Positions 4,156 to 30,453 of a DNA stretch of 64,000 nt are shown in pieces (position 1 is the stretch's first letter; every line of letters starts with the position of its first letter). Both the position numbers and the translations under genes were made by a program. The stretch comes from Labrys monachus (GTDB lineage: Bacteria; Pseudomonadota; Alphaproteobacteria; Rhizobiales; Labraceae), in the NCBI RefSeq assembly GCF_030814655.1, contig NZ_JAUSVK010000001.1, positions 4,471,001 to 4,535,000 of the forward strand, written 5' to 3'. The notes beneath the pieces were generated by a model. That model worked only from the letters and a program-made list of their open reading frames with translations, searched no databases and was not told the origin of the DNA.

Positions 4156-4866
4156 ATGATCATGGACGATGGGATTGCCGGTGCCGGCGAGATGGACAAG
4201 GTTGCCCGGCCGGGCCTCCGGGCGGGACTTCTCGATCGCCGGTCGTTTCTGTTCGGCTCTGCCGCCGTCGGGATGAGCGCGCTGGGGCTCGCCGGCTGCG
4301 CGACCGACGGCATGAGCCTCGCCGAGGCCGAGAAGATCTACGGGCCGGTGCCCGACGAGAAATTCCCGGTTCCGGCGGTCAATCTCGGCAAGCTCGATTC
4401 GAAATATTATCGCCGCAGGGTGCGCTACGACAGCAAGGAAGCCGCCGGCACCATCATCATCGATCCCGGCAAGCATTATGTCTACCGCATCGAAGGCGAC
4501 GGCAGCGCCACCCGCTATGGCGCCAATGTCGGCCGCGCAGGCTTCCTGTGGAGCGGCGAAGCCTATGTCGGGCGCAAGGCCGAATGGGCGACCTGGACGC
4601 CGCCCAAGGAGATGATGGCGCGCCAGCCCGAGGCGCGCAAATATGCCGGTGGCATGCCCGGCGGCCTCGGCAACCCGCTCGGTGCCCGCACGCTCTACCT
4701 CTATCAGAACGGCGCCTACACGCTCTATACGATCTACAGCACCAGCGTGCCCCAATCGATCGGCACCGGCGTGACGAGCGGCTGTACCGGCCTCCTCACC
4801 CAGGACATGCTCGACCTCTATCCGCGCACGCCGGTCAAGACGAAGGTGATCGTCCTGCCGGCGTAG
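4156..4866 (+). CDS. L,D-transpeptidase-fold (YkuD) exported protein with altered active site
   Basis: A 236-residue protein with an RRSFLFGSAAVGMSALGLAGC segment (residues 28-48) that reads as a twin-arginine signal ending in a lipobox cysteine (C48). Residues 62-236 match Rhizobiales YkuD enzymes, which cross-link peptidoglycan stem peptides: GPVPDEKFPVPAV, GTIIIDPGKHYVYRI, KAEWATWTPPKEMM and GNPLGARTLYLY. The nucleophile C210 is kept (TSGC), but the usual HGTNxP motif is YSTSVP (residues 194-199), so the catalytic His is Tyr194, and the Arg after the Cys motif (GCIR) is replaced (GCTG). It is therefore probably not a standard transpeptidase; it may bind peptidoglycan or use another mechanism. 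ATG 4162 is an alternative start. Confidence 0.85.
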   Translation: MIMDDGIAGAGEMDKVARPGLRAGLLDRRSFLFGSAAVGMSALGLAGCATDGMSLAEAEKIYGPVPDEKFPVPAVNLGKLDSKYYRRRVRYDSKEAAGTIIIDPGKHYVYRIEGDGSATRYGANVGRAGFLWSGEAYVGRKAEWATWTPPKEMMARQPEARKYAGGMPGGLGNPLGARTLYLYQNGAYTLYTIYSTSVPQSIGTGVTSGCTGLLTQDMLDLYPRTPVKTKVIVLPA

Positions 4867-5122
4867 GCGGCGGCTTCGGCCTGCCGCGACGTTCGGATGC
4901 GTAGCCGCGGCAGGGCGGAACCCGATCGCTTCGCCTTGAAGGCATCTATGCGAAAACCGCCATCGCATTCGAACAATCGGAATTCGATGGCTCAGCCTCA
5001 TTCCGCGCGACCGGGAATTGCAGCCACGCCATCGATCGCCTCAACCAGACCGTCACGATGCTGCCGGCGAAATCCGTGATGTCTCGCGAAACCTCGGGAG
5101 GCCTCGCTGAGCCCCCAAGGAT
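4867..5122. other. Possible decayed coding stretch, no gene called
   Basis: One plus-strand frame stays open from about 4920 to 5124 and gives a protein-like reading (for example LEGIYAKTAIAFEQSEFDG), but it has no start codon in a sensible place and I recognise no family. It may be a remnant of the gene whose tail is the following PhoU-like frame, in a different phase. Treat as uncertain. Confidence 0.25.
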
Positions 5123-5524
5123 ATGACCGGGCTGAACGGGATAATGAACAGCCACCGCCTGCTTGGCGGCCTCGGCCGGACGGTGATCGATCTCGCGACG
5201 ACCGCCCTCCGCATCGACCACGACGCCCCCTCGGGCATCCTCGCCGGCACCATCGTCGAAGGCCTCGATGCGGTGGTGCTGACGATGCTGGAGGCCCTGA
5301 ACGAGGCATCCCCCGAAGCCCGGGAGCATTTCCACGCCATAACCCGCGACCGCGCAAACGTGATGCAGCCCCTCCGCCAGGCCTATCTGGCGGCCGAACC
5401 GGACCTGTCGATGGCGCAAAAGGGCGCCATTCTCATCCTGACCAACCTCGCCGAACGCGCCCTCGGGCTGCTCGGCCAATTCGCCGACCAGGAAAAGGCA
5501 ACGGAGCGGGAACAGGCGGGTTGA
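5123..5524 (+). CDS. PhoU-like helical protein, possibly the tail of a lost Na/phosphate cotransporter
   Basis: 133 residues, almost all helical. The second half (LDAVVLTMLEALNEASPEAR, then AITRDRANVMQPLRQAYLAA and QKGAILILTNLAERALGLLG) resembles the C-terminal PhoU-like domain of Na/Pi cotransporters, where a regulator domain of about 150-200 residues follows the membrane part. The membrane part is absent, and nothing upstream encodes it. It is either a stand-alone PhoU-like protein or a gene fragment. No ribosome site is obvious before the ATG at 5123; an alternative ATG is seven codons in. Confidence 0.5.
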   Translation: MTGLNGIMNSHRLLGGLGRTVIDLATTALRIDHDAPSGILAGTIVEGLDAVVLTMLEALNEASPEAREHFHAITRDRANVMQPLRQAYLAAEPDLSMAQKGAILILTNLAERALGLLGQFADQEKATEREQAG

Positions 5525-5831
5525 GGGGACTGGGACGGGCAGCGACGAGGGCCGGACGGGGCGGCCCACCGCGAGGGATTGCCTGTGGGATACGCTACCG
5601 AGATGGCGCCAGGAAAAGCCATTCGCTCGCAGCCGAATAGCGGACATTCATCTCCGCGCCCCTAAGTGGACATTCACTTACTCTGGCGTCGATCCCGAAA
5701 GCTGACGTCTATTCATATAGCGACGATCGCGCGTTTGAGTGGGAAGCCGACTGGCAGCCTTTCGCGGGAAGAACGAGTTACCCGACACTCCGCTACTGCG
5801 GGGCGACCAGCTGCTAGTACCTCAATTCTAG
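5525..5831. other. Left flank of the island: degenerate short repeats, no gene
   Basis: Contains spaced copies of a GGACATTC-like word (GCGGACATTCAT near 5640, GTGGACATTCACT near 5667, GACGTCTATTCAT near 5704), a pattern I associate with decayed intergenic repeats in alphaproteobacteria. A short frame ending near 5818 reads protein-like at its end but has no start. Base composition drops here, marking the left border of the low-GC island. Confidence 0.4.
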
Positions 5832-7871
5832 CTAAGCACTTCTCTCAGCCGCATCCGGCGCCAAAGCCCTCGGCTGATCGCCACCATCTTCGTCGGCGTC
5901 TTCGACGATGACACCTTCCAGAAACTGGCTATGTTTTTCCTGCAGATATCTGATCGCGGTACTTTCGTCGGCGGAATGCTGCAGATGCTCTTGGAAGAAC
6001 TGAAGCCGAGCCCGATTTTCCTCGATGAGCTCGCCCCAGGTCTTGATACCGACGATATGCCGCGGCCCCCGCGCGATCAGGCGGCGCTCGCGATCTGGAC
6101 CACTTTCGATCTCATGCTTTGCGAAGTCGTCATAGGCGTTGGAGACCAGCCAGAAGTGCCAGCGCACGCCGTCGACGGTCGAGAACCGCTCGTCTGACGT
6201 GACGGCGATCGCGTATTTTTTTGCCTGCGTGATCTCGTCGGCGCCGATCTTCACCTTCGGCGCCTTGAGCTCGACGATCATGTGCTCAATGTCGTTGGCA
6301 CGATGCCGTCGCGTCGAGCGCGAGAACATCAGGTCGATGATGCCGCGCGCCTTGCCGATCACTTTCACTGGCTCGTCGATCGCGATGTTCGGATCGAGAT
6401 GGTCGCGATGCTTTTCGAGGACGCGACGGAGATCCTTGTCGCTCACCCAAAGGTTATACTCCTCGCCGAACACCCAGGTATTTTCGGCGAGGATTTTGTG
6501 GAGCTGGGTGCGTTCCTTCAATCGGCCTTTGGTTTCCGGGTCGAAGACGATCGACTCGAGCGCGGATATGAACTTCAGTCGATCGGCGACGGTCTTGGCG
6601 GCGGTGATGATCGCGGACAGCGTCGTTTCCTGCAGAAGGTTCGCAAGCTCCTTCTGCTTACGGGCCGGCAGGTCCAGAACCTCCTTCAGGATGAGCTGCA
6701 ACTCCTCCGGTCCGCGCTCGATGGCGTTGCGCAGCATGCGAAGGTGCAGCGCCTTCGCCTTTGCCGAGCTGATGCCAAGATCGGGCGCAAGCTCCTGAAC
6801 CTGGACCGCGACGATGTCGAACACCTGACGCTCGACCTTCTCGACGGCGTTCTGCGGCGTGCCGCGATAGGGATAGACGTCTTCGGCGATCCACTCGTCG
6901 ACCAAGGATCGCGCCTTTTCCGCCGATTTTTCGCGAAAATAGTCCTTGATTGCCGAGCGGGCATTTTCGACGGCTGCGCTCAGCAGGGGATCCATCTCCG
7001 AGAGCGCAACGCGTTCTTCGTTGTGCAATTCCTCGACATAGGTAGATTTCAGATATGCGGAGAAAGAGAAGCCGGGAATGTGGAAGCGCGTTTCGACTTG
7101 ATCGAACGGAAAGCCGCTCGCGGAGCAGAGATAGAGGACTCGCCGCGCATCCGTTCGCCATTCGATGACTTCGAGCTCGACATCGTGCCGGGCGCCATCA
7201 TCCTTCTCGATTGGCGGCAGTGACGCTTTGTGGTGACTGGCGATAACATTCTCGGGATCGAGCCTATGGCCGGTGATCGAGATCGACACGCCTCGATAGT
7301 TCATCAGGTAGAGCGCGAAAATCTCGTTCAGGTCCTGAAGGCCGTCTTCGCTCTCGAAGGTCTTGAAATCACGCCGGAGGTCGTCGATTTCGACGATGAC
7401 CCCCGTTGAGCGCCCGGGTGCTGGCGCTTCCTCGGTGATGGTGACGTCGGTGAGATCGGCCTCGAGGAGCCGGACCTCGAACGCCTTACGCCCGGACGGA
7501 TCGTCATAGCAGACCTTCCAGGTGACCGACTGGCCGATGGCGAACGCCTTGTAGCGGCCGCGCCCTTCCTGGCCGTGGATCATGCGGTGGTTGCGCTTGG
7601 TCTGGCGAACGTGGCGTTTCCACGAGCCGCCGAGATTACCGAACAGCGCACGGGCGTCGCTGCGGGAAAATCCGTCACCATTGTCGTAGACGACGATTTT
7701 CGACATGCCGCCTGCGAGATCGTTGTGCGCGAACTCGACCGATACCTCGGTGGCGTCGCCATCGAGGCTGTTCCATAGCAACTCCGCAAGCGCAGGCACC
7801 GGCTTCGCCTTGGTCTGCCGCGCGACGAAATCATCTCTCACCGCGACGGATACATGTTCCTCGCCGGCCAT
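5832..7871 (-). CDS. GHKL ATPase fused to a PD-(D/E)xK (DUF4263/Shedu-like) nuclease domain
   Basis: 679 residues. The N-terminal 300 residues carry the Bergerat-fold ATPase boxes of Hsp90/MutL/MORC proteins: N box ELLWNSLDGDA (E30, N34), G1 box DNGDGF (63-68) and G2-like GRGRYKAFAIG (103-113). A long charged helical middle (300-440) follows. The C-terminal part has LAENTWVFGEEYNLW (461-475), IIDLMF with D513, VELKAPK with E534 and K536, and ITQAKKYA with Q549, the order of catalytic residues in PD-(D/E)xK nucleases of the DUF4263 type. An ATP-gated nuclease is therefore inferred. It is the last gene of a three-gene minus-strand set, 61 bases after the HEPN-like gene, and its GC content is visibly lower than that of the flanks. 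Confidence 0.8.
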   Translation of the reverse strand: MAGEEHVSVAVRDDFVARQTKAKPVPALAELLWNSLDGDATEVSVEFAHNDLAGGMSKIVVYDNGDGFSRSDARALFGNLGGSWKRHVRQTKRNHRMIHGQEGRGRYKAFAIGQSVTWKVCYDDPSGRKAFEVRLLEADLTDVTITEEAPAPGRSTGVIVEIDDLRRDFKTFESEDGLQDLNEIFALYLMNYRGVSISITGHRLDPENVIASHHKASLPPIEKDDGARHDVELEVIEWRTDARRVLYLCSASGFPFDQVETRFHIPGFSFSAYLKSTYVEELHNEERVALSEMDPLLSAAVENARSAIKDYFREKSAEKARSLVDEWIAEDVYPYRGTPQNAVEKVERQVFDIVAVQVQELAPDLGISSAKAKALHLRMLRNAIERGPEELQLILKEVLDLPARKQKELANLLQETTLSAIITAAKTVADRLKFISALESIVFDPETKGRLKERTQLHKILAENTWVFGEEYNLWVSDKDLRRVLEKHRDHLDPNIAIDEPVKVIGKARGIIDLMFSRSTRRHRANDIEHMIVELKAPKVKIGADEITQAKKYAIAVTSDERFSTVDGVRWHFWLVSNAYDDFAKHEIESGPDRERRLIARGPRHIVGIKTWGELIEENRARLQFFQEHLQHSADESTAIRYLQEKHSQFLEGVIVEDADEDGGDQPRALAPDAAERSA

Positions 7872-7932
7872 TTACCCTCCCGAGCCCCTAACCGGGCCAG
7901 TTTCCCACGCCGACCGCGCCGAGCGACGACGT

Positions 7933-8886
7933 TCAGCGTTCGTTGTTGTCATCCTCGTATCCGGAATAGTCATCTTCCGGCGCATAATATTCGGCAGCGT
8001 CGTAGACTTGCGTTTTCTTGTAGCGATCGCTTAAGCCAACCACCGCGAGACGCGACAGGCCGTTTATCTTGAGCCCGCACGCGACGCATTCGAACCGTTC
8101 AGGCAGAAATTCCTGGGTTTCGGTGATCTCGCCGTCGCTCAGCCGTTGCTGTGGCGCGGAGACCGGTTCGCCCCAAACGAGTGCCTGGGAGGTGCAGGCG
8201 GGACAATCGACGCGATGGCCGGCATGCCGCGTGGCCCAGACCGCTGCCTGTGTGGTCAGTGTGTCGCGCTCATCGCTGGGCTTGGCGAGCCAGACCTTTT
8301 TGTGGGCATCGACTTCGCCCTTCACCGCCTTCGCGCTTTCGTCGACTGCGGCGGCGATCAATTTCGTCGCGACATTCGCCTCCTCCTCCCCGAGGAAATC
8401 CTTAAGCGTCGCACCCATGGAGGCGAGGAGAATCTCACAGGTTTGATAGAAGCGCGGCTGCCAGGACGATCCCTTTACCCCGTCGAAGGCAAGCTCGCCG
8501 GAATGAAGCTCGGCGTTGCGGCGGCCCGTGTGCTGGACGCCAAAGCTTTCATGCTCTTTGGCGAAATCCGGGAGGATGGCAGTGAGCCGCTTGAAGACCT
8601 CGCTGACGGCGATCGATTTTGGCGCGAACCGCTCCTCCGTGGGCGTGAAACCCAGCGCGTGATACAAGCTCGACCAGCTCTTGTCGGTGTCCGCGATCAG
8701 GGCGGGACTGACATTGGCGAGCGCGGCGCGGGCGAGAAATTCGAGCGCAAGGCTGGACCACAGGGCATATTCCCAGTCGTCGCTGTTGAATGCGCTTATA
8801 TGCTGGATGTAGCGCTCTGCCTTGAGATAGAGCGCGTCCGGATCGCACGAGGCCGGCGTCGCGCCGGGTGAAATTGACTTCTTCAA
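7933..8886 (-). CDS. HEPN-like protein with C-terminal zinc ribbon
   Basis: 317 residues. The first 190 residues are helical and contain GRRNAELHSGE, where R123 and H128 form the RxxxxH motif of HEPN ribonuclease-type domains. The C-terminal part has CPAC (C228, C231) and CVAC (C267, C270), a four-cysteine zinc ribbon, and ends in an acidic tail rich in D, E and Y. The start is a TTG at 8886: GGAGG lies seven bases upstream, and the TTG overlaps the TGA of the dioxygenase-like gene (TTGA), which implies coupled translation. A longer frame upstream runs antisense-free but has no biological start. The nuclease role is inferred from the motif only. HEPN domains are typical of toxin and antiviral systems. 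Confidence 0.7.
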   Translation of the reverse strand: MKKSISPGATPASCDPDALYLKAERYIQHISAFNSDDWEYALWSSLALEFLARAALANVSPALIADTDKSWSSLYHALGFTPTEERFAPKSIAVSEVFKRLTAILPDFAKEHESFGVQHTGRRNAELHSGELAFDGVKGSSWQPRFYQTCEILLASMGATLKDFLGEEEANVATKLIAAAVDESAKAVKGEVDAHKKVWLAKPSDERDTLTTQAAVWATRHAGHRVDCPACTSQALVWGEPVSAPQQRLSDGEITETQEFLPERFECVACGLKINGLSRLAVVGLSDRYKKTQVYDAAEYYAPEDDYSGYEDDNNER

Positions 8887-9539
8887 TGCAGCGCCTCCAG
8901 ATACACGCGCTCGATCGCCCGGCTTTCGCCCCCTGGAAGGATCGGCGAGCGGGCATGCAGCATCCGCCAATTGTCGATCAGGAGCGTGTCGTGAGTTTTG
9001 GCCAGCGACATCGCCGTCGGCGTGCATGTCGAAAGCCATTCGCGAACACGGAGGTCGGCGGCTTCGCCGATCCTGCTCGCCGGTTTCAGGAAAACCTCGT
9101 CCCAGCGAACCCGCACGACATCTTCGACAGGCTCGCAAAGGCGCAGGAGCGAGATGCTCCCGTCACGCGGTCTTCGCGGTTTGAAGATGGCGCGCGCCAG
9201 AATGTCGAGGGTGACGGCGTCGATAAGGTCGTGCCCGTCGATCAGCAACGTCGGGATATCTGAATAGCCAGCGACGCAACGCAAAAGGAGGTAGCGCGGT
9301 GGCGTGCGCCAGTGGGCGAGATCTGAATGAAAAGGGAAACGATTGAGGCCGAAAATGCCGCTATAGCTGTTCGGCGCAGCCTCGCTGAGCGGCACGAGCG
9401 TCTGGACGAGTCCATCTTCCCATGGTTCCAAGGGCTTGCCAAAATCCTCCGCTATCTCGACGATGCTGTCGTTCGGCCGATGACTGCTGAAAAATATGTA
9501 GCCGCTTTTGCGGATCTCGTCTCTGATTTCTAATGACAT
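8883..9539 (-). CDS. TauD/TfdA-like 2-oxoglutarate and Fe(II)-dependent dioxygenase
   Basis: 218 residues from the ATG at 9539. NRFPFHSDLAHWRTPPRYLL holds the iron-binding HxD pair (H71, D73), NWRMLHARSPI gives the distal His (about 195), and RAIERVYLE holds the arginine that should bind 2-oxoglutarate. The protein is shorter than TauD (283), lacking part of the N-terminal and lid regions. It is the first gene of the island operon; its stop overlaps the HEPN-like start. Substrate unknown; the company of a HEPN-like and an ATPase-nuclease protein makes a small-molecule or nucleic-acid modification role possible. A further in-frame start exists at 9632. Confidence 0.75.
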   Translation of the reverse strand: MSLEIRDEIRKSGYIFFSSHRPNDSIVEIAEDFGKPLEPWEDGLVQTLVPLSEAAPNSYSGIFGLNRFPFHSDLAHWRTPPRYLLLRCVAGYSDIPTLLIDGHDLIDAVTLDILARAIFKPRRPRDGSISLLRLCEPVEDVVRVRWDEVFLKPASRIGEAADLRVREWLSTCTPTAMSLAKTHDTLLIDNWRMLHARSPILPGGESRAIERVYLEALH

Positions 9540-9865
9540 TCTGGCACGCGGTGTTTGGCACGACGCACAGCAACCTCCTCTTTGGTCAACCTTTTTGCTG
9601 GAAGTGTACAGCGCGTATTTGCTCAGGATCAACGTGCGTAATATGGTAGGGACATTTCCGTCGAAACGGCAGACAAGAGGTCGGCTGCAGAAGGGCAGCT
9701 TTCTCGTAACTGCCGTGAAGGCTCGACAGTCCGATTACGGCCCCACAGCGGACGCTCCCAACGTCTCAGAAGGGGTCAATAGCCAGATTTCACCCACCCA
9801 TCCCGAATGGACGCAATGGCTACAAAGGAGACATGCGTCCCAATCCTTCGAGATCCCCCCCGCCC
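9540..9865. other. Right flank of the island, no gene; likely promoter region for the minus-strand operon
   Basis: Low-GC DNA up to about 9700, then GC-rich. One plus-strand frame crosses it but is proline-rich and unsupported. Words such as GCGGACGCTCCCAACGTC (near 9749) recall the GGACATTC-type decayed repeats of the left flank. The operon promoter should lie just above 9540, but no clear -35/-10 pair stands out. Confidence 0.4.
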
Positions 9866-10234
9866 CTACCTCTGCCCCGGCCGCTCCCTTGACAGCCCCT
9901 TGTCCTGCAGCTCGGCCAAATAAGCCGCCCAGCGGGTTTCCTTCTCGCGCCCCAACTCAGCCAGATAGGTCCAGGTGAACAATCCCGTATTGTGCATGTC
10001 GTCGAAGCCGAGGCGCACGGCGTAGTTGCCGACGGGGTCGACGCTGAGGATGGTGACGTTGATCTTGCCGCCCACCGTCTTGCGCTCGGCGGCGCTGTGG
10101 CCCTGGACTTCGGCGCTGGGCGACATCACGCGCAGGAATTCGGCGCCGAGGGCATAGGTCTGCCCGTCGTCGAAGCTGACGGTCAGCGTCTTCTTGTCCT
10201 CGGAGAGGCGCAGTTCGGTCGGCCAGGCGGTCAT
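9866..10234 (-). CDS. DUF971 (gamma-butyrobetaine hydroxylase-like N-terminal domain) protein
   Basis: 122 residues that consist of a single DUF971 domain: [20 protein letters not shown], the [18 protein letters not shown] segment, and [20 protein letters not shown] followed by YLAELG. The domain occurs alone near iron-sulfur and molybdenum cofactor genes in many Proteobacteria, and as the N terminus of carnitine-pathway hydroxylases. Here it is divergent from moaA, which fits that association. The molecular role is not established; the domain assignment is firm. Confidence 0.88.
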
Positions 10235-10412
10235 GTCGTCATCCCCTCGCGATCGGCCCGCGGCATCGCCTTGCGGCCGGCGCGGGGCCGCGCGCTTGAA
10301 AATGCGCGCCTGCGGGCCACATAGGAGGTGGAACAGGGAGGCGCAAGGCGGATTTGCACAAGCCGGCTTTACGCCCCCACGCTATTGCCCTTACAAGAAA
10401 CAAACGGGGGAT

Positions 10413-11459
10413 ATGCCCCTTGGAGTCGACGACGTGCTGGATGATCGCGTAATGGCAGCGGGCCTGCCGATGATCGACCCCTTTGGCCGTTCCATCGACT
10501 ATCTGCGAGTCTCGGTCACCGACCGCTGCGATTTCCGCTGCGTCTACTGCATGTCCGAAGACATGACCTTCCTGCCGAAGAAGGACCTGCTGACGCTGGA
10601 GGAGCTCGACCGGCTGTGCTCGGCCTTCATCGCCAAGGGCGTGAGGAAGCTGCGCCTGACGGGCGGCGAGCCGCTGGTGCGCCGGGACATCATGACGCTG
10701 TTCCGCTCGCTGTCGCGCCATCTCGACAGCGGCCGCCTGCAGGAACTCACGCTCACCACCAACGGCTCGCAGCTGGCGCGTTTCGCCGCCGAGCTGAAGA
10801 GCTGCGGCGTCGAGCGCGTCAACGTCTCGCTCGACACGCTCGACCCCGACGCCTTCCGGGCCATCACCCGCTGGGGCGACCTTGCCAAGGTGCTGGAGGG
10901 CATCGACAAGGCGCAGGAGGCCGGCCTCGCCGTCAAGATCAACGCCGTCGCCGTCAAGGGCATGACCGAGACGGAAGCGTTCCGGCTGATCGAATGGGCG
11001 CATGGCCGCGGCATGGACCTCACCTTCATCGAGGTGATGCCGCTGGGGGACGTCTCCGGCCATCGCGTCGACCAATATCTGCCGCTCTCGGTGCTGCGCG
11101 CCCAATTGCTCGACCGCTACACCCTCGAGGACATCCCCTATGCCACCGGCGGGCCGGCCCGCTATGTCCGCGTCGCCGAGACCGGCGGGCGGCTCGGCTT
11201 CATCACGCCGATGACGCATAATTTCTGCGAAAGCTGCAACCGCGTGCGGATCACCTGCACCGGCACGCTGTTCATGTGCCTCGGGCAGGAGGATGCCGCC
11301 GATCTCAGGTCGCCGCTGCGCGCCTCCGAATCCAACGGCCTCCTCGACGAGGCCATCGACCGGGCGATCGCCCGCAAGCCCAAGGGGCACGACTTCATCA
11401 TCGACCGCCGCACGAAGCAGCCCTCGGTGAGCCGCCATATGAGCATGACGGGCGGCTGA
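10413..11459 (+). CDS. moaA: GTP 3',8-cyclase MoaA (molybdenum cofactor synthesis)
   Basis: A 348-residue radical SAM enzyme for the first step of molybdopterin synthesis, GTP to 3',8-cyclo-7,8-dihydro-GTP. [10 protein letters not shown] holds the N-terminal CxxxCxxC cluster; [13 protein letters not shown] is the SAM-binding GGEP motif; [19 protein letters not shown] is the second, substrate-side cluster. The protein ends in MSMTGG, the Gly-Gly tail needed for activity. The ATG at 10413 is preceded by a GGGGG run; ATG 10452 is an internal alternative. solA-like follows after three bases, so both may be on one transcript. Confidence 0.96.
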
Positions 11460-24936: not shown

Positions 24937-25947
24937 TTACGCCGCCTGGGCTTCGCCCCCCCGCCGCAGAGAGGCTTCGCGCACATGGGCCGCCGCGTCG
25001 AGCAGGACATCGAGGCCGGCGCCCGGCTTGACCGCCTCGGTGGCGAGGTGGCGGCGGAACAGGCGCGCGCCCGGACGGCCGGGGAACAGGCCGAGCATGT
25101 GGCGCGTGATCGAACTCAGCCGCACGCCCTGCGCCAGCTGCGCTTCCACATAGGGCGCCATCGCCTCGATCGCCTCGAAGCCGTCGGCGACAGGCGGCGC
25201 CTGCCCGAACAGCACGGGATCGACGGAAAGGAGGATCTCGGGGTTCTGATAGGCCTCCCGCCCGACCATGACACCGTCGAGCCGGGCGCAATGGCCCTGC
25301 CAGTCGGCGACCTGCCGGATGCCGCCATTGATGGCGACGGGCAGATCGGGGTTGGCCTGCTTCAGGCAATAGACCCGATCATAGTCGAGCGGCGGCACGT
25401 CCCGGTTCTCCTTCGGGCTGAGCCCCTTCAGCCAGGCCTTGCGCGCATGGACGACGAGGGCGTCGACGCCGGCCGCACGCACGGCCGCGGTGAGGCTGTC
25501 GAGCGCCTCCTCCGGATCCTGCTCGTCGATGCCGATGCGGCATTTGACGGTGACCGGCAGCGATACCGCGGCCTTCATCGCCGCGACGCTCTCGCCGACG
25601 AGCCCGGGCTCGGCCATCAGGCAGGCGCCGAAGCGCCCTTCCTGTACCCTGTCCGAGGGGCAGCCTACATTGAGGTTGATCTCGTCATAGCCGAGATCGG
25701 CGCAGATGCGGGCGGCGCGCGCGAGGTCGGCCGGATGGGAGCCGCCGAGCTGCACGGCGACGGGATGCTCCTCCTCCGAAAAGCCGAGCAGCCGCGCGCG
25801 ATCGCCATGGATCACCGCACCGGTGGTCACCATCTCCGTATAGAGCAGCGCGCGCCTCGACAGCACGCGGTGGAAGAACCGGCAATGCCTGTCCGTCCAA
25901 TCCATCATGGGGGCGATGGAAAAGCGCAAATATTCGTAACTACCCAT
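24937..25947 (-). CDS. dusA: tRNA-dihydrouridine synthase A
   Basis: 336 residues, an FMN enzyme that reduces U20/U20a in tRNA. FSIAPMMDWTDRHCRFFHRV is the N-terminal DusA signature, AVQLGGSHPADLARAARICA and EINLNVGCPSDRVQEGRFGA hold the catalytic cysteine region, and VHARKAWLKGLSPKENRDVP is specific for DusA. The ATG at 25947 starts at the conserved MGSYEYLRFSIAP; an upstream in-frame start at 25974 would add nine residues. Confidence 0.95.
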   Translation of the reverse strand: MGSYEYLRFSIAPMMDWTDRHCRFFHRVLSRRALLYTEMVTTGAVIHGDRARLLGFSEEEHPVAVQLGGSHPADLARAARICADLGYDEINLNVGCPSDRVQEGRFGACLMAEPGLVGESVAAMKAAVSLPVTVKCRIGIDEQDPEEALDSLTAAVRAAGVDALVVHARKAWLKGLSPKENRDVPPLDYDRVYCLKQANPDLPVAINGGIRQVADWQGHCARLDGVMVGREAYQNPEILLSVDPVLFGQAPPVADGFEAIEAMAPYVEAQLAQGVRLSSITRHMLGLFPGRPGARLFRRHLATEAVKPGAGLDVLLDAAAHVREASLRRGGEAQAA

Positions 25948-25974
25948 TTCGATTCCGATTTGGGGGGCTCTCAA

Positions 25975-26524
25975 CCCTCCATTTTCATTCGATTTCGGCC
26001 CTTATAGCGGCTTTCTCGATTCCATCGCGCGCTGGGCGTAACGTCGTATCGAGGGAACGGGAAGCCGTACCGCTTCGGACCCGGCGGCCATGAGCAGGTC
26101 TTAGCACGAAAACGCAAGGATGGCTCTATCGGCCGCCGCGCGATCGCGATCGAGCGGGATGGCGAGATCGTCGATGGGAAGGCCAGAACCTTCGATCGAA
26201 GCAGGCTGAGGATGCCCCGCATCGGCTTGTTGGCGACGGAGCAGGCGGAGCTGCCGCCTCTCGGAAGTGTCGGGCTCGAAGACGATGCCGAACGTCGGCT
26301 CCATTCTTCGGAGGGCCCCGGAAGAAAGGCCCGCATGAGGCGGGCCTTGGGGTCGGAAGCTCGGCCCTGCTGCATCTCGCCACGCTGGCAGAACGCGGCG
26401 TGGCGAGAGCAGATTGTTGCTACGATGCATTTTATCGATCGAAAAGCCTATCGGCTTTTCTGGAAGAGGCTCGAGCATCCACGCCGCCGAGCCGATGCCG
26501 GCCCGGCTCGGTACGCCCGGTATC
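25975..26524. other. 550-base region between dusA and the outer-membrane protein, no gene
   Basis: Frames on both strands are open for up to 370 bases but show no ribosome site or known family. A perfect 8-bp hairpin lies at 26441-26460. The dusA promoter should lie in the AT-richer 25950-26030 stretch. Confidence 0.45.
26441..26460. terminator. Perfect hairpin downstream of the outer-membrane protein gene
   Basis: GAAAAGCC-TATC-GGCTTTTC, an 8-bp stem with a four-base loop, 65 bases after the stop of the minus-strand barrel gene. No run of T follows on either strand, so termination is likely but not certain. Confidence 0.45.
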
Positions 26525-27385
26525 TCAGAATTTGTAGTTCAAGCCGACCCGAACGATGTGCGCCCTGCTCGAGTCCTTCCAGGTCATGAACTCGCCGGGG
26601 TCTTCCGGATTTACGACGACATGATTCTTCTTGCCGAGATCGACATAAAGATACTCGGCCTTGATCGTGTTGTGGTCGGTGATGGCGTATTCGGCGCCGG
26701 CGCCGATCGTCCAGCCCCAGCGAACCTGGCTCTTCGAGCCGGAGAAGCCGCCGCTTCGGTCGAAGTCCGCATTTCCGCCGCCGCCCCACCAGTAGCCATA
26801 TTCGTGCCAATTGTAATTGCCGCTGCTCTTCACCTGTCCATAGGCGAGGCCGCCCGTGGCATAGACGAGGAGCCGGTCGACCGGCGTGAAGCCGAAGCGG
26901 GGCCGAATGGTGCCGAACCATTCCGTCTTGCTTTCCGGCGTGAGATATTCACGGAGATGATAATTATAGTTCTGATCGCCAATGGGCTCGTAGATATCGG
27001 TGATGTCGTCCGCGAGATATTTGGTCTTCTGCCCGAGATAGTTGAAGTCGGCTTCGATACCGACGACGAACTGGCCGAACTGCTGGTTGTAGCCGAACTG
27101 CGCGCCCCCGGTGAATGAACCCCGCTTCGAATTGCGCTGACCCGAGAACCAGCCATTGGCGAAGGTCCCGACATACTCATGCTCAGTGTCGTAATAGGTC
27201 GGGTCCTTGATCTTGTCGGCGCCGTTCCAACCATATCCAGCGTTCACACCAGCATAAAAGCCCGTCCACGAAAAAGGCACGTAGATTGGAGCCACGGGCT
27301 CCGGGCTCTGCGCCGGCAAATCGGAAGCCATCGCGGGGCCGCCCACGGCGGCAACCGCAGCGAGAGCAGCAAGCAACTTACGCAT
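26525..27385 (-). CDS. Outer-membrane beta-barrel protein (Omp25/Omp31 type)
   Basis: 286 residues. The signal peptide MRKLLAALAAVAAVGGPAMA is followed by SDLP and WTGFYAGVNAGYGWN, the conserved N-terminal strand of Rhizobiales Omp25/31 proteins. Further barrel strands include GGAQFGYNQQFGQFVVGIEA, LLVYATGGLAYGQVKS and WTIGAGAEYAITDHNTIKAE, and the protein ends in HIVRVGLNYKF with the C-terminal Phe needed for barrel assembly. Glycine/tryptophan-rich loop GYWWGGGGN is notable. Such proteins are abundant small-pore or structural outer-membrane proteins. Confidence 0.93.
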   Translation of the reverse strand: MRKLLAALAAVAAVGGPAMASDLPAQSPEPVAPIYVPFSWTGFYAGVNAGYGWNGADKIKDPTYYDTEHEYVGTFANGWFSGQRNSKRGSFTGGAQFGYNQQFGQFVVGIEADFNYLGQKTKYLADDITDIYEPIGDQNYNYHLREYLTPESKTEWFGTIRPRFGFTPVDRLLVYATGGLAYGQVKSSGNYNWHEYGYWWGGGGNADFDRSGGFSGSKSQVRWGWTIGAGAEYAITDHNTIKAEYLYVDLGKKNHVVVNPEDPGEFMTWKDSSRAHIVRVGLNYKF

Positions 27386-27665
27386 TGAAATCCCCCAAGA
27401 AACTTATACCCTGCCAGCGACCAGCCGACGGTAGCATGCTGTAGAAAACTCAAGCATAGGCTGCAATCGCATCGGTACGTCAGCCATTTGCGGACGGAAC
27501 GCCACCGCACGTTTCGGCCGCTTCTGTAGCGCACGTCCTCTCACCGGTTATGGCAGAGGAGATGGCCCTTGATTGTGCCGCTGGTGGACGACGCGCCGTT
27601 GTGGGGGCTGCGGCGGCAATCGGCGCGCAAATTCTTCTCAATCTTCAACGCAGTAAACTCGCCGG
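27386..27665. other. Upstream region of the outer-membrane protein gene
   Basis: 280 bases, lower in GC. It should hold the promoter of the minus-strand barrel gene. A GGGGGA ribosome site lies directly before its ATG. No coding signal. Confidence 0.4.
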
Positions 27666-27995
27666 TTAAACACCTTGAGCCGCGCTCGCGTGCATTTTGC
27701 GCAGAAGCTCGCCGACGTTACCCGCGTGACTTGAGATGTTGCCCGTCACGCCATGCTCACGTCCATTCTCTTCCTTATCCCCGTAGCATGCCTCAAACGT
27801 CTGGAACGCCTCTGACCACGGTGAGATATCAATCTCCTGGATTGCCCCATAGGCATCGACTGCCACGTTGAAGATCGCCGGTTCAATATCCACGATCTGG
27901 CCGTACCACTTGAACGCTCCAGGGACGTCTCCAGGCGCCCGCTTCTGCCTCTTTGCCTGCGCTGCCTCACCCCAGCCGCGGCAACTGAATTGATC
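27666..27995 (-). pseudogene. Unassigned frame without a usable upstream start, possible gene remnant
   Basis: The minus frame is open from a stop at 27996-27998 down to 27666. The first start-type codon is a GTG at 27893 that opens VDIEPAIFNVAVDAYGAIQE, yet the preceding 30 codons (with APGDVPGAFKWYGQIVDIEP) also read as normal protein. This suggests the 5' part of a gene has been lost. The composition is low in GC, like the neighbouring flavin oxidoreductase region. I do not recognise the family. A short real gene starting at 27893 (75 residues) is the alternative. Confidence 0.35.
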
Positions 27996-28081
27996 CTACC
28001 TGTCGGCCGGAATCGCTGAGGCAGGCGCGATGCGAGGCTCGGCCTGGGCGGAGCCGCACGATGGCAAGAGGATATACCGCC

Positions 28082-29113
28082 TCATAGGGCCTTTGCCGGC
28101 GGAGGTAGATCCAGCATCGTCTTTACTTCCCGCATCAGCATTCGCATGGAGCGGTGTACCTGCGGCTCGGGCAGAAGCCCGAAGTTGTGCAGTGTCAAAA
28201 CGTGATCGACGCCCATGTCGCGGAGACGAAGCAGCTTTTCTGCAATGGTTTTAGGTGAACCGAAGAGTGCCAGGCCGCTTTCGATGATGTCGTCATAGAC
28301 GGCACTCTTGGCGTAAAGACGGGTTGCAACGTAGCGGTCAAACGCCTCCGCGGCAATTTTCCGAGCCTCCGCGTCTGTTTCGGCAACATGGGTATGCATC
28401 GCGAGCGCGACCGCATTGCGATGGTCGGAGAGGCCGGCTTCTTCCCGGCCGCGACGGAACTCACCCATCATCTCCCCTATTGCTTCGAAGTCCTCGACCG
28501 AGGCGTAGGGAACGAAGAGCATGCGCCTGCTCTGCCGGCCAAGTTGATAGGCGGCTTCCTTACGCAAGATAGCGACAAAGACAGGAAGATCCTGCTGTAT
28601 CGGAAAGACGTTGATACTTACCGAATCAAGGTCAATATAGGGCCCATGATGAGTAACCCGCTCGCCGTGAAGCAGGCGCATGACGAGGTCGAGATGTTCA
28701 TCGAAGCGGTCGCGCTTGGTGGCTGCATCGACGCCATAGCCTGCGAATTCGTGTTTGAGGTAGCCGGACCCGACCCCAAGAGTAAGGCGCCCGTTGGACA
28801 GCACGTCAACCATCGAATAATTCTCGGCAATCGTCAGCGGATTATGAAAGGTTAGGATCGAGATGGCGGTGCCGAGCCGGAGGCGGGTCGTGCGCGCGGC
28901 AAGATGGGAAAGAAGAATTGCCGGATTGGGCACCGTGCCGTATTCATGAAAGTGATGTTCTGCGACGAAAAAAGTGTCATATCCAAGTCTTTCGGCAAGA
29001 TCCGCTTGGCGCACGACCTCGGCGTAAAGCTCCTCGAGGGTGCGTTTCTGAGACGGATAGTGATCTTGGACAGAGAAGACGGATAGTTTCAAAGACCTGA
29101 TCCTCGCAGCCAT
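28082..29113 (-). CDS. LLM-class flavin-dependent oxidoreductase (luciferase-like)
   Basis: 343 residues. LGYDTFFVAEHHFHEYGTVP, LAARTTRLRLGTAISILTFH, NPLTIAENYSMVDVLSNGRL and LGVGSGYLKHEFAGYG are classic bacterial luciferase-like signatures; the protein belongs to the same superfamily as the enzyme at 941-1963 but is not closely related. GC content is clearly below that of the flanks, suggesting transfer. Substrate unknown. It stands alone, downstream of and antiparallel to the hydantoinase remnant. Confidence 0.9.
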   Translation of the reverse strand: MAARIRSLKLSVFSVQDHYPSQKRTLEELYAEVVRQADLAERLGYDTFFVAEHHFHEYGTVPNPAILLSHLAARTTRLRLGTAISILTFHNPLTIAENYSMVDVLSNGRLTLGVGSGYLKHEFAGYGVDAATKRDRFDEHLDLVMRLLHGERVTHHGPYIDLDSVSINVFPIQQDLPVFVAILRKEAAYQLGRQSRRMLFVPYASVEDFEAIGEMMGEFRRGREEAGLSDHRNAVALAMHTHVAETDAEARKIAAEAFDRYVATRLYAKSAVYDDIIESGLALFGSPKTIAEKLLRLRDMGVDHVLTLHNFGLLPEPQVHRSMRMLMREVKTMLDLPPPAKAL

Positions 29114-29300
29114 TCCGGGCGGCCAATTTAAGATCCTTCTGCTACCTCCGTGTTTCAGACAGCCCTATTCTCATTACAGATGAAATAATGAGCCCGGGTA
29201 GAAAAAGGGCATCATGCGCCTTTCGCAACCCGAAGCGTTCGGAATGTTGAGCACGCCGCCAAATCCAGCCTCCCAGTCCCTGCTTTTCCGGCGCTATCGA

Positions 29301-29760
29301 AACGGAGTGAGCGGGCTCGCTTCGATCTTCAATCCCGAGGCGCCGGCCTCCGCCGAGGCCCGCTTCACCCAATGCAATTTCATGATCGACCTGATCATCG
29401 AGACGATGGCGCCGGTGCTGCCGGCCGAGATCATCGCCGGCTCCTCGGCCTCGATCTCGTTCGCCTCCTATGCCGGCGTCCGCCTGGGCGGCGACTATTG
29501 GGTGTTCCTGGAGGTCAATGAAGGCGCCTATGGCGGCAGGCCGCACTCGGACGGGCCGGTTCGGCAATCCGCTGGAGCGCGATCCGCACAAGGTCCTCGA
29601 CGACGTGCTCGACGGGTTCTGCTCGCCCGAAGACGCGCGCGAGATCTATGGCGTCGTGCTCGATCTGGAGAGCGAGACGGTGGATCTCGGCGGCACGCAG
29701 GCGCTGCGGCTGCAACGCGAAGGCCAGCTGCAGCGCCGGCCGCCGCCGCTGTCGCCCTGA
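29301..29760 (+). pseudogene. Hydantoinase B (HyuB) remnant with internal deletion and frameshift
   Basis: One plus frame encodes IFNPEAPASAEARFTQCNFM, DLIIETMAPVLPAEIIAG and GDYWVFLEVNEGAYGGR, matching the central-to-late part of HyuB. From about 29545 the match continues in the next frame with FGNPLERDPHKVLDDVLDGF and EDAREIYGVVLDLESE, the C-terminal end of the same family. The segment between them, and the whole N-terminal half, are missing. It is therefore a decayed copy. It lies at the far end of the hyu operon and in the opposite direction, so it is not a simple read-through duplicate of the intact hyuB at 34577-36589. Confidence 0.75.
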
Positions 29761-29772
29761 CGCGGCGGCGGT

Positions 29773-30453
29773 TCAGAAGACCGCCATCGACGGCGCCGCG
29801 GGGTTGTCCGGCGCCGACAGGCAGCCCTTTTCCATCTGCAGGATGCGGTCGGCCAGGCTCTCCATGAACTGGACGTTCTGCTCGACGAGGAGGATCGTCA
29901 GGCCGAGCCTCTTGCGAAGGTCGTGCAGGGTGTCGACGATCTCGTCGCGGATCGAGGGCTGCACGCCTTCGGTCGGTTCATCGAGGAGCAGCAGGCGCGG
30001 CTGGCCGCAAAGGCAGCGGGCGAGGGCCAGGATCTGCTGCTCCCCGCCGGACAGCACCCCGCCGGCCCGGTCGGCGATCGGCTTCAGCCGCGGGAACAGC
30101 GCCAGGAAGCCGTCGACGATGACCGGCGACCGACCGGACGCCAGCGCCGCCATCGCCATGTTTTCCCGAACGGTCAGCGCCGGAAAGATCTGCCGGCCCT
30201 GGGGAACGTAGCCGAGCCCGAGACGCGCGCGCCGATGCGGCGGCAAGCCGCCGATCTCCTGCCCGGCGAGGGCGATCCTGCCCCTCGTCAGCGGTATGTC
30301 GCCGCTGATCGCCTTGAGAAGCGTGCTCTTGCCCATGCCGTTATGGCCGAGAATGCCCAGGAACTCGCCCTCTTCGACGGCGAAGCCGACATTGCGCAGC
30401 ACCCGCATCTGGCCGTAGCCCGCCTCGATGCCCGCCACCGTCAGAAGCGTCAT
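29773..30453 (-). CDS. HAAT-family ABC transporter ATPase (LivF/UrtE type)
   Basis: 226 residues. Walker A GHNGMGKSTL, Q-loop region LGYVPQGRQIFPALTV, signature SGGEQQILALARCL and Walker B LLLLDEPTEGVQPS are intact; the PxLTVRENM and EGVQPS forms are typical of LivF/UrtE. It energises branched-chain amino-acid or amide uptake with the next four genes. It is the last gene of the hyu transport operon and overlaps the preceding ATPase gene by ATGA. Confidence 0.94.
   Translation of the reverse strand: MTLLTVAGIEAGYGQMRVLRNVGFAVEEGEFLGILGHNGMGKSTLLKAISGDIPLTRGRIALAGQEIGGLPPHRRARLGLGYVPQGRQIFPALTVRENMAMAALASGRSPVIVDGFLALFPRLKPIADRAGGVLSGGEQQILALARCLCGQPRLLLLDEPTEGVQPSIRDEIVDTLHDLRKRLGLTILLVEQNVQFMESLADRILQMEKGCLSAPDNPAAPSMAVF

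Follow-up and report, generated by a model that had tools for sequence, protein, structure and literature searches.

Within a 64,000-nucleotide stretch of the Labrys monachus genome (contig NZ_JAUSVK010000001.1, positions 4,471,001 to 4,535,000; referred to as the window), an island of three minus-strand genes (window positions 5832-9539) carries a gene for a predicted TauD-type Fe(II)/2-oxoglutarate (2-OG) oxygenase, named TauD here, followed by a gene for a HEPN-like protein with a zinc ribbon, named HEPN. These two genes form a coupled, near-obligate pair, and the catalytic residues of either protein are conserved. It is the two genes, not all three, that make up the conserved unit, and the third gene, which encodes a GHKL ATPase-nuclease (GHKL), is a facultative, separate cassette. 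Judged from the sequences, the pair is a strong candidate for an undescribed immune or toxin-antitoxin (TA) system, and it is quite possible, at somewhat less than an even chance, that TauD-HEPN is a mobile two-gene conflict module in which HEPN would be the ribonuclease (RNase) effector and the oxygenase its dedicated enzymatic partner.

The pairing is observed from whichever gene the search is started. When TauD was searched in the genome_contigs set (84,980 species, each represented by one genome), 48 loci were obtained, and HEPN is found directly downstream of TauD in all 48, being cut by the contig end in three of them (L037, L044 and L068). The HEPN profile, searched in two draws of genomes, was found in 7 of 398 genomes (phylum) and in 6 of 385 (class); three genomes, including that of L. 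monachus, occur in both draws, which gives 10 distinct genomes. TauD lies upstream of HEPN in nine of these, among them the L. monachus genome and G085, and in the tenth (G224) the HEPN gene is broken by stops and TauD is not in the examined stretch. The TauD-found and HEPN-found sets overlap, as G085 is the same contig as L039. On plasmids, 46 records have HEPN, with TauD present in 12 of the 12 regions examined, and all six viral contigs, searched from either side, carry both genes; HEPN was not found in 50,697 phage records at an E-value of 1e-5. The gene junction is also preserved, as 45 of the 48 loci have an NTGA sequence there that is in frame with HEPN (TTGA in 33, ATGA in 11 and GTGA in one), and the pairwise distances of TauD and HEPN are highly correlated (r of 0.93 for 38 loci, with no value as high in 2000 permutations). 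A sequence-only reading of this DNA, which had proposed the three genes as a new defence system, had suggested a search for the three proteins as neighbours in other genomes. This search gives a near-absolute TauD-HEPN adjacency across phyla, and for the three genes together largely the rare adjacency that this reading had named as speaking against it; the patchy distribution that it had expected is seen in both HEPN draws.

TauD is predicted to be an Fe(II)/2-OG oxygenase by its profile, its residues and its fold. It matches the Pfam TauD model (PF02668) with an E-value of 4e-10 and 40.4 bits, above the cut-off of 27; Pfam gives this general model alone, there is no specific match in NCBIfam, PADLOC or PHROGs, and no system model of PADLOC-DB 2023 is matched by TauD. 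The AlphaFold model has a pLDDT of 93.5, and in the Foldseek comparison the closest solved folds are AsnO (asparagine oxygenase), TmpA, clavaminate synthase, PvcB and other Fe(II)/2-OG enzymes, with KDO1 and VioC (small-molecule or amino-acid oxygenases) also among the nearest. Six residues, H71, D73, T97, H195, R207 and R211, are invariant in the 39 aligned rows, and by analogy with TauD and clavaminate synthase we take H71, D73 and H195 to be the iron site and T97, R207 and R211 to be the 2-OG site. Exceptions elsewhere are an HxE motif in L091 and L093 and an aspartate in place of the threonine in L095. In L094, the TauD alignment ends ahead of the arginines, and the translation has H, D and H, as well as an arginine past the motif.

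The HEPN assignment is likely, and it is based on the invariant RNxExH motif, the predicted helical fold and weak fold matches. The residues R123, N124, E126 and H128 of this motif (also readable as R-x4-H) and the cysteines C228, C231, C267 and C270 are invariant in the 38 aligned rows; in L108 the glutamate is a histidine. In the AlphaFold model (pLDDT 88.8), a helical part is followed by a strand-rich part, which holds the cysteines. The 50 Foldseek rows listed include HepT (7bxo and 5yep) and HEPN (2hsb) structures, and every E-value is above 0.1, so that the HEPN label is likely, not proven. None of the 38 HEPN members matches a Pfam HEPN model, and two match anything in Pfam at an E-value of 0.01 (DUF7129, best E-value 0.0076). 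The HEPN sequence finds nothing above the cut-off in Pfam or NCBIfam, nothing convincing in PADLOC or PHROGs (PADLOC-DB 2023 gives Cas11a alone, at an E-value of 0.025, with no system-model membership), and no match in a sequence search of the Protein Data Bank. The HEPN gene is broken in L089 and L113, which would fit a toxin that is lost at times, two copies being too few to judge; in L089, HEPN is split and the TauD open frame is without its N-terminus.

In the third protein, a GHKL ATPase domain (Pfam HATPase_c_3, E-value 8e-13) is combined with a C-terminal nuclease that is weakly matched (HSDR_N_2, E-value 0.001, below the cut-off). The GHKL boxes, D513 and E534-L535-K536 (D-(x20)-ELK) are invariant in 10 aligned sequences, down to 32% identity. 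The protein falls outside the NCBIfam family BbrUII/HgiDII (E-value 8e-12, 44.5 bits versus an equivalog cut-off of 550), and it matches REase_II of PADLOC-DB 2023 (E-value 4e-4). Its residues 347-635 match phrog_6203, a phage family of unknown function, in PHROGs (E-value 1e-69), which means that relatives of the GHKL-nuclease exist in phage genomes. A full-length GHKL gene follows the pair in seven of the 48 loci (L033, L034, L035, L039, L040, L041 and L060), fragments alone are found in L036 and L038, and there is no GHKL gene in the other 39, of which the three cut by the contig end stop inside HEPN, and 255 and 513 nucleotides remain past HEPN in L053 and L074, respectively. The GHKL gene also occurs without the pair: the seven GHKL plasmid regions examined (from 48 records) have no TauD or HEPN within 6 kb, two of them holding copies with 93% identity to the window copy (L097 and L102). 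Neighbours of GHKL relatives include a Dcm/LlaMI restriction-modification (R-M) pair and Drt2 (L100) and a type ISP enzyme (L098). In the window, the cassette may be a further defence gene, separate from the pair, that was joined to it on the downstream side. Concerning the family calls of the sequence-only reading, those for TauD and GHKL are upheld by Pfam, the nuclease call has the weak profile match and the invariant residues, and the HEPN call stands on motif and fold, with no Pfam match. That reading had seen the novelty in the set of three; the union of oxygenase and HEPN, which is mobile, patchy and probably undescribed, agrees with it, and the three-gene set as the novelty does not, given the seven full-length GHKL genes in 48 loci.

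The hosts of the pair range from Alphaproteobacteria to Bacillota and belong to several phyla. In Limimaricola (Rhodobacterales), Azospirillum (Rhodospirillales) and Novosphingobium (Sphingomonadales), TauD is 80-95% and HEPN 92-96% identical, and a distant relative is found in Tumebacillus (Bacillota), with 28% identity for TauD and 35% for HEPN. Of 149 genomes of relatives, two, one of which is the own genome, have a TauD match, and none of the four congeners has one. The high identity across orders, the differing flanks and the lack of a TauD match in the four congeners show, at the level of sequence comparison, that the pair is mobile and has been transferred horizontally. A core gene, which the sequence-only reading had named as speaking against its proposal, is rejected by the congener result. 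Among the 46 plasmid records with HEPN, 32 are predicted to be conjugative. When the DNA of the island region was compared with the congeners (with at most 40 initial candidates scored per genome), the right flank was found in all four, and from inside the island two short matches alone (about 31 and about 49 bases) were found, in G004. The matches of the left-flank YkuD gene and of the right flank lie on different contigs in each congener, so that a clean empty site cannot be read. All three genes are under purifying selection, the ratio of mean dN to mean dS being 0.195 for TauD and 0.094 for HEPN (10 loci each) and 0.071 for GHKL (8 loci). The protein change of TauD is 2 to 2.5 times that of HEPN, and it is highest in codons 1-60.

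The pair is often found near known defence genes, which the sequence-only reading had proposed to score. In two scans with PADLOC at a threshold of 1e-10, which covered 20 hand-picked large neighbour proteins from 18 loci, nine of the 20, from eight loci, match defence families, either named or candidate ones. These are GajA (Gabija; L043), a short Argonaute (pAgo) with an APAZ-nuclease (APAZ-REase) (L056), MkoC (Mokosh; L041), LmuB (Lamassu; L054), a Septu-like PtuA/PDC-M01A ATPase (L033), the candidates PDC-S06 (L040) and PDC-S68 (L039), and a type I methyltransferase (MTase_I, type I R-M; L059). A near/far count was made with proteins from 41 of the 48 loci, L037, L044, L046, L047, L050, L068 and L071 being dropped as redundant or short. 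The near set has 133 of the 189 neighbours within 3 kb (loci L033-L069), and the far set has 133 proteins at least 5.5 kb away, taken from the first 148 of 191 in random order, with one large L077 protein and the last 14 left out. The near set matches 271 PADLOC families and the far set 99, a weak contrast because families are counted, not proteins, and because the far genes also include defence genes (Qat, DrmD, HamB and BrxA). The most frequent neighbour cluster other than TauD, HEPN and GHKL (cluster 3) is present in nine loci, with up to 13 copies at varied distances.

In the annotated plasmid contexts, AbiV and AbiH (L088), VapC-type pairs (L085, L088, L089 and L093), TrlF ATPases (L091, L093 and L095) and SIR2 with AbiEi (L092) are found, and one plasmid copy, L085, adjoins sulfur genes. 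Genes like AbiV, AbiH, VapC and TrlF are common on plasmids in general. The divergent pairs of L091 and L093, on two plasmids, have the same gene order of TrlF-like ATPase, TauD, HEPN and GIY-YIG nuclease, and in L095 the TrlF gene is downstream of the pair; TrlF is thus a possible second linked partner. In L039 (6202-9999), a 1265-aa RecD/PIF1-like helicase, which is the PDC-S68 match, abuts TauD, its stop and the TauD start being separated by a single base. This helicase was considered as a fourth component and rejected, as it has no relative in the other 47 loci, and it is regarded as a mere neighbour.

It is possible that the HEPN-zinc-ribbon protein acts as a ribonuclease effector, whose RNA cutting would halt growth or phage takeover, with the zinc ribbon binding RNA or the partner. 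TauD, which is encoded first, would oxidise HEPN itself or an RNA or residue bound to HEPN, and would thereby hold HEPN inactive or license it; an infection or stress that blocks the synthesis or the activity of the oxygenase would then free the RNase. The oxygenase would perhaps be an antitoxin that acts by oxidation, in a mode like that of the HEPN/MNT (type VII) pairs, with hydroxylation replacing AMPylation. The nearest working precedent for an enzyme as the antitoxin of a HEPN toxin is HepT/MntA, in which a toxin tyrosine that adjoins RX4H is AMPylated by the antitoxin (PMC7641770). The gene order, the overlap, the near-obligate pairing and the two conserved active sites fit an upstream enzyme that controls a downstream RNase. 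In 33 of the 48 loci HEPN starts with TTG, which would fit the production of less toxin than antitoxin, although this codon is also constrained by the overlap itself. The more far-reaching proposal, that the pair represents a new immunity or TA class in which an oxygenase dependent on O2, iron and 2-OG controls a HEPN RNase by hydroxylation, either post-translational or of RNA, and in which the metabolic and redox state of the cell, or its disturbance by a phage, would arm the RNase, is doubtful.

Several observations weigh against a conflict module with HEPN as the effector and TauD as its partner. The first-ranked Foldseek match of HEPN is the sacsin HEPN domain, with a weak E-value of 0.71. 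The modified tyrosine of HepT (RX4HXY) is missing, as the window HEPN has RX4HXG and the alignment rows shown have no tyrosine at this column, so that no target residue for the partner is evident. The closest solved relatives of TauD act on amino acids and small molecules, not on protein or RNA, and the faster change of TauD is superfluous for a pure housekeeping antitoxin. A broken TauD beside an intact HEPN is found in no locus, a broken HEPN in two, and these two copies alone are too few to tell toxin from antitoxin. Finally, 10 of the 18 scanned loci have nothing at 1e-10 among the hand-picked neighbours, and this, together with the defence matches at least 5.5 kb away, indicates that the islands, and not the pair alone, carry the defence signal.

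Other explanations were also considered. In an RNA restriction-modification system, TauD would hydroxylate host RNA (for example tRNA) as a self mark and HEPN would cut unmarked RNA. The near-obligate pairing, the conservation of both active sites, a zinc ribbon that could bind RNA and the travel of the pair between hosts as one unit are compatible with this, but the structural neighbours of TauD work on small molecules and amino acids, the 218-aa TauD is without an evident added nucleic-acid-binding domain, and we know of no RNA substrate; such a system is considered unlikely. The nearest folds (AsnO, clavaminate synthase, KDO1 and VioC) are compatible with a small-molecule signal made or destroyed by TauD, or with a TauD that senses 2-OG, iron or oxygen, HEPN being the switched effector. 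The faster change of TauD, with its peak in codons 1-60, would fit a varying sensor or specificity part. In HEPN, however, no ligand-binding domain is recognised in addition to the helical part and the zinc ribbon. This explanation is considered decidedly unlikely.

A single three-component defence system made by all three genes is very improbable. The three genes do occur in one block in seven loci of several orders, with a DNA identity to the window of 89-94% in six and 85% in the seventh, but 39 of the 48 loci have no GHKL gene and two have a fragment, and close GHKL copies exist without the pair (L097 and L102). As a unit, the three-gene system is rejected, GHKL being facultative. The least probable explanation is a mobile metabolic or stress operon of an ordinary kind, with no defence link: the relatives of TauD are metabolic enzymes, and the plasmid copy L085 lies beside sulfur genes, but the RNase-type HEPN motif is invariant, and the commonest neighbour cluster outside the module is confined to nine loci, whereas defence genes of varied kinds recur. 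A metabolic role of the dioxygenase-like gene, which the sequence-only reading had named as a possible objection, was not found.

The layout of the island is given in Table 1. The three closely spaced minus-strand genes of the sequence-only reading are confirmed as open reading frames (ORFs), with the TTGA overlap between TauD and HEPN and a gap of 61 nucleotides between the HEPN stop and the GHKL-nuclease gene. The lower GC content that it reported is also confirmed, at 60.2% for 5832-9539 versus 67.3% for the rest of the window; a value that low is reached by 16 of 603 windows of the same length (step 100), all of which overlap the island or the region of about 25.4-30 kb. Decayed repeats bordering the island are not found: the left and right borders share no exact match of more than 8 nucleotides in either orientation, and 8 nucleotides are reached in 45 of 60 shuffles. 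Within the left border, there are direct repeats of 12 nucleotides (5639/5665) and of 19 nucleotides at 74% (5557/5799), and weak inverted repeats of 14 and 18 nucleotides are present within the right and the left border, respectively. Rfam has no match at 4800-10500, and no tRNA is found in the window. The blastn blocks extend, for example, over 5699-9703 at 92% (L034) and 5875-9757 at 94% (L033).

Table 1. Features of the island in the window
Feature	Position	Strand	Remarks
TauD/clavaminate-synthase-like Fe(II)/2-OG oxygenase (predicted)	8883-9539	minus	218 aa, ATG start; core pair, gene 1
HEPN-like protein with C-terminal four-cysteine zinc ribbon (likely)	7933-8886	minus	317 aa, TTG start; core pair, gene 2
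TTGA stop/start overlap, TauD-HEPN coupling	8883-8886	minus	4 nt
GHKL ATPase with PD-(D/E)xK-type nuclease	5832-7871	minus	679 aa, ATG start; accessory cassette outside the core pair
Candidate sigma-70-like operon promoter, TTGATC-18-TACACT	9603-9632	minus	by-eye reading
Possible 12-codon out-of-frame leader ORF	9530-9568	minus	GTG start behind a GGAGG-like site; overlaps the TauD start
Transferred block, outer limits common to relatives of other orders, flanks differing	5699-9757		blastn blocks

The hexamers TTGATC and TACACT of the promoter are presumed ones. The block upstream of the operon looks alignable between the window, L033, L034, L035, L060 and L037, and not in L036 and L040. Of 11 close loci, the same six have the leader ORF, which ends 10 nucleotides into TauD. 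By eye, the TauD ATG is without a clear ribosome site, so that its translation may be coupled to the leader ORF. Outside the island, the right-flank gene (9866-10234, minus strand), which is present in all four congeners, encodes a protein with a GBBH-like N-terminal domain (PF06155). In the second low-GC region (about 25400-30000), a partial match to Hydantoinase_B (29214-29867) is found together with genes for an outer-membrane-protein-type (OMP) beta-barrel (26525-27385) and a luciferase-like monooxygenase (28082-29113).

Should the pair prove to be a defence or TA module, Fe(II)/2-OG oxygenases would enter the field as the partner of an RNase effector, a role absent from the texts and libraries searched, and immunity would be linked to oxygen, iron and 2-oxoglutarate. 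The module is small (about 1.6 kb, two genes), occurs in several phyla and can be tested directly in laboratory hosts. It also offers a clean family with defined catalytic residues for the question raised by HEPN/MNT, namely how far enzymes, rather than tight-binding proteins, serve as antitoxins. Word searches were made in the main texts of PMC13092281, PMC2292703, PMC3710099, PMC8195603, PMC2701414, PMC7641770, PMC12839542, PMC8649781 and PMC7159879, and the words dioxygenase and TauD are absent from the main texts of the 2013 HEPN survey, the TA survey, DefensePredictor, the BREX survey and the Tn7-cargo survey. In the titles and the starts of abstracts of the papers listed, no HEPN-dioxygenase pair was found, a scope that leaves aside supplements, most subscription papers and bioRxiv, where the pair may stand under an accession.

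When compared with known systems, the third gene shares the GHKL ATPase and the PD-(D/E)xK-type residues with BbrUII/HgiDII and with the MORC/paraMORC GHKL proteins of R-M systems, which it resembles (PMC2292703, main text). Like these, some of its relatives have R-M or defence neighbours, but no methylase is seen beside it in the window. The RecD-like helicase PDC-S68 of PADLOC touches TauD in L039 and is unmatched in the other 47 loci. With the TauD/TfdA family (PF02668; AsnO, clavaminate synthase, TmpA and PvcB), the oxygenase shares the fold, the HxD...H iron site and the 2-OG threonine and arginine; it differs in being short, in being tied to a HEPN gene and in lying on mobile DNA, often near defence genes. 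The HEPN defence effectors (AbiU2, DUF4145-like proteins, PrrC/RloC, Tha and DS-11) have in common with HEPN an Rx4-6H motif and probably a helical HEPN-like fold, whereas here the 38 members have no Pfam HEPN match and the partner is an oxygenase, a term that the main text of the 2013 HEPN survey does not contain. The closest likeness in organisation is with the type VII HEPN/MNT systems, also two-gene mobile pairs in which a HEPN protein with an RX4H motif adjoins an enzyme. The pair described here has an Fe(II)/2-OG oxygenase and no nucleotidyltransferase (MNT, with GSX10DXD; PMC7641770, main text), it has no HXY tyrosine, and a zinc ribbon is added. As the partner is TauD and the RX4HXY tyrosine is missing, type VII membership is rejected; the pair may work similarly, with oxidation as the modification.

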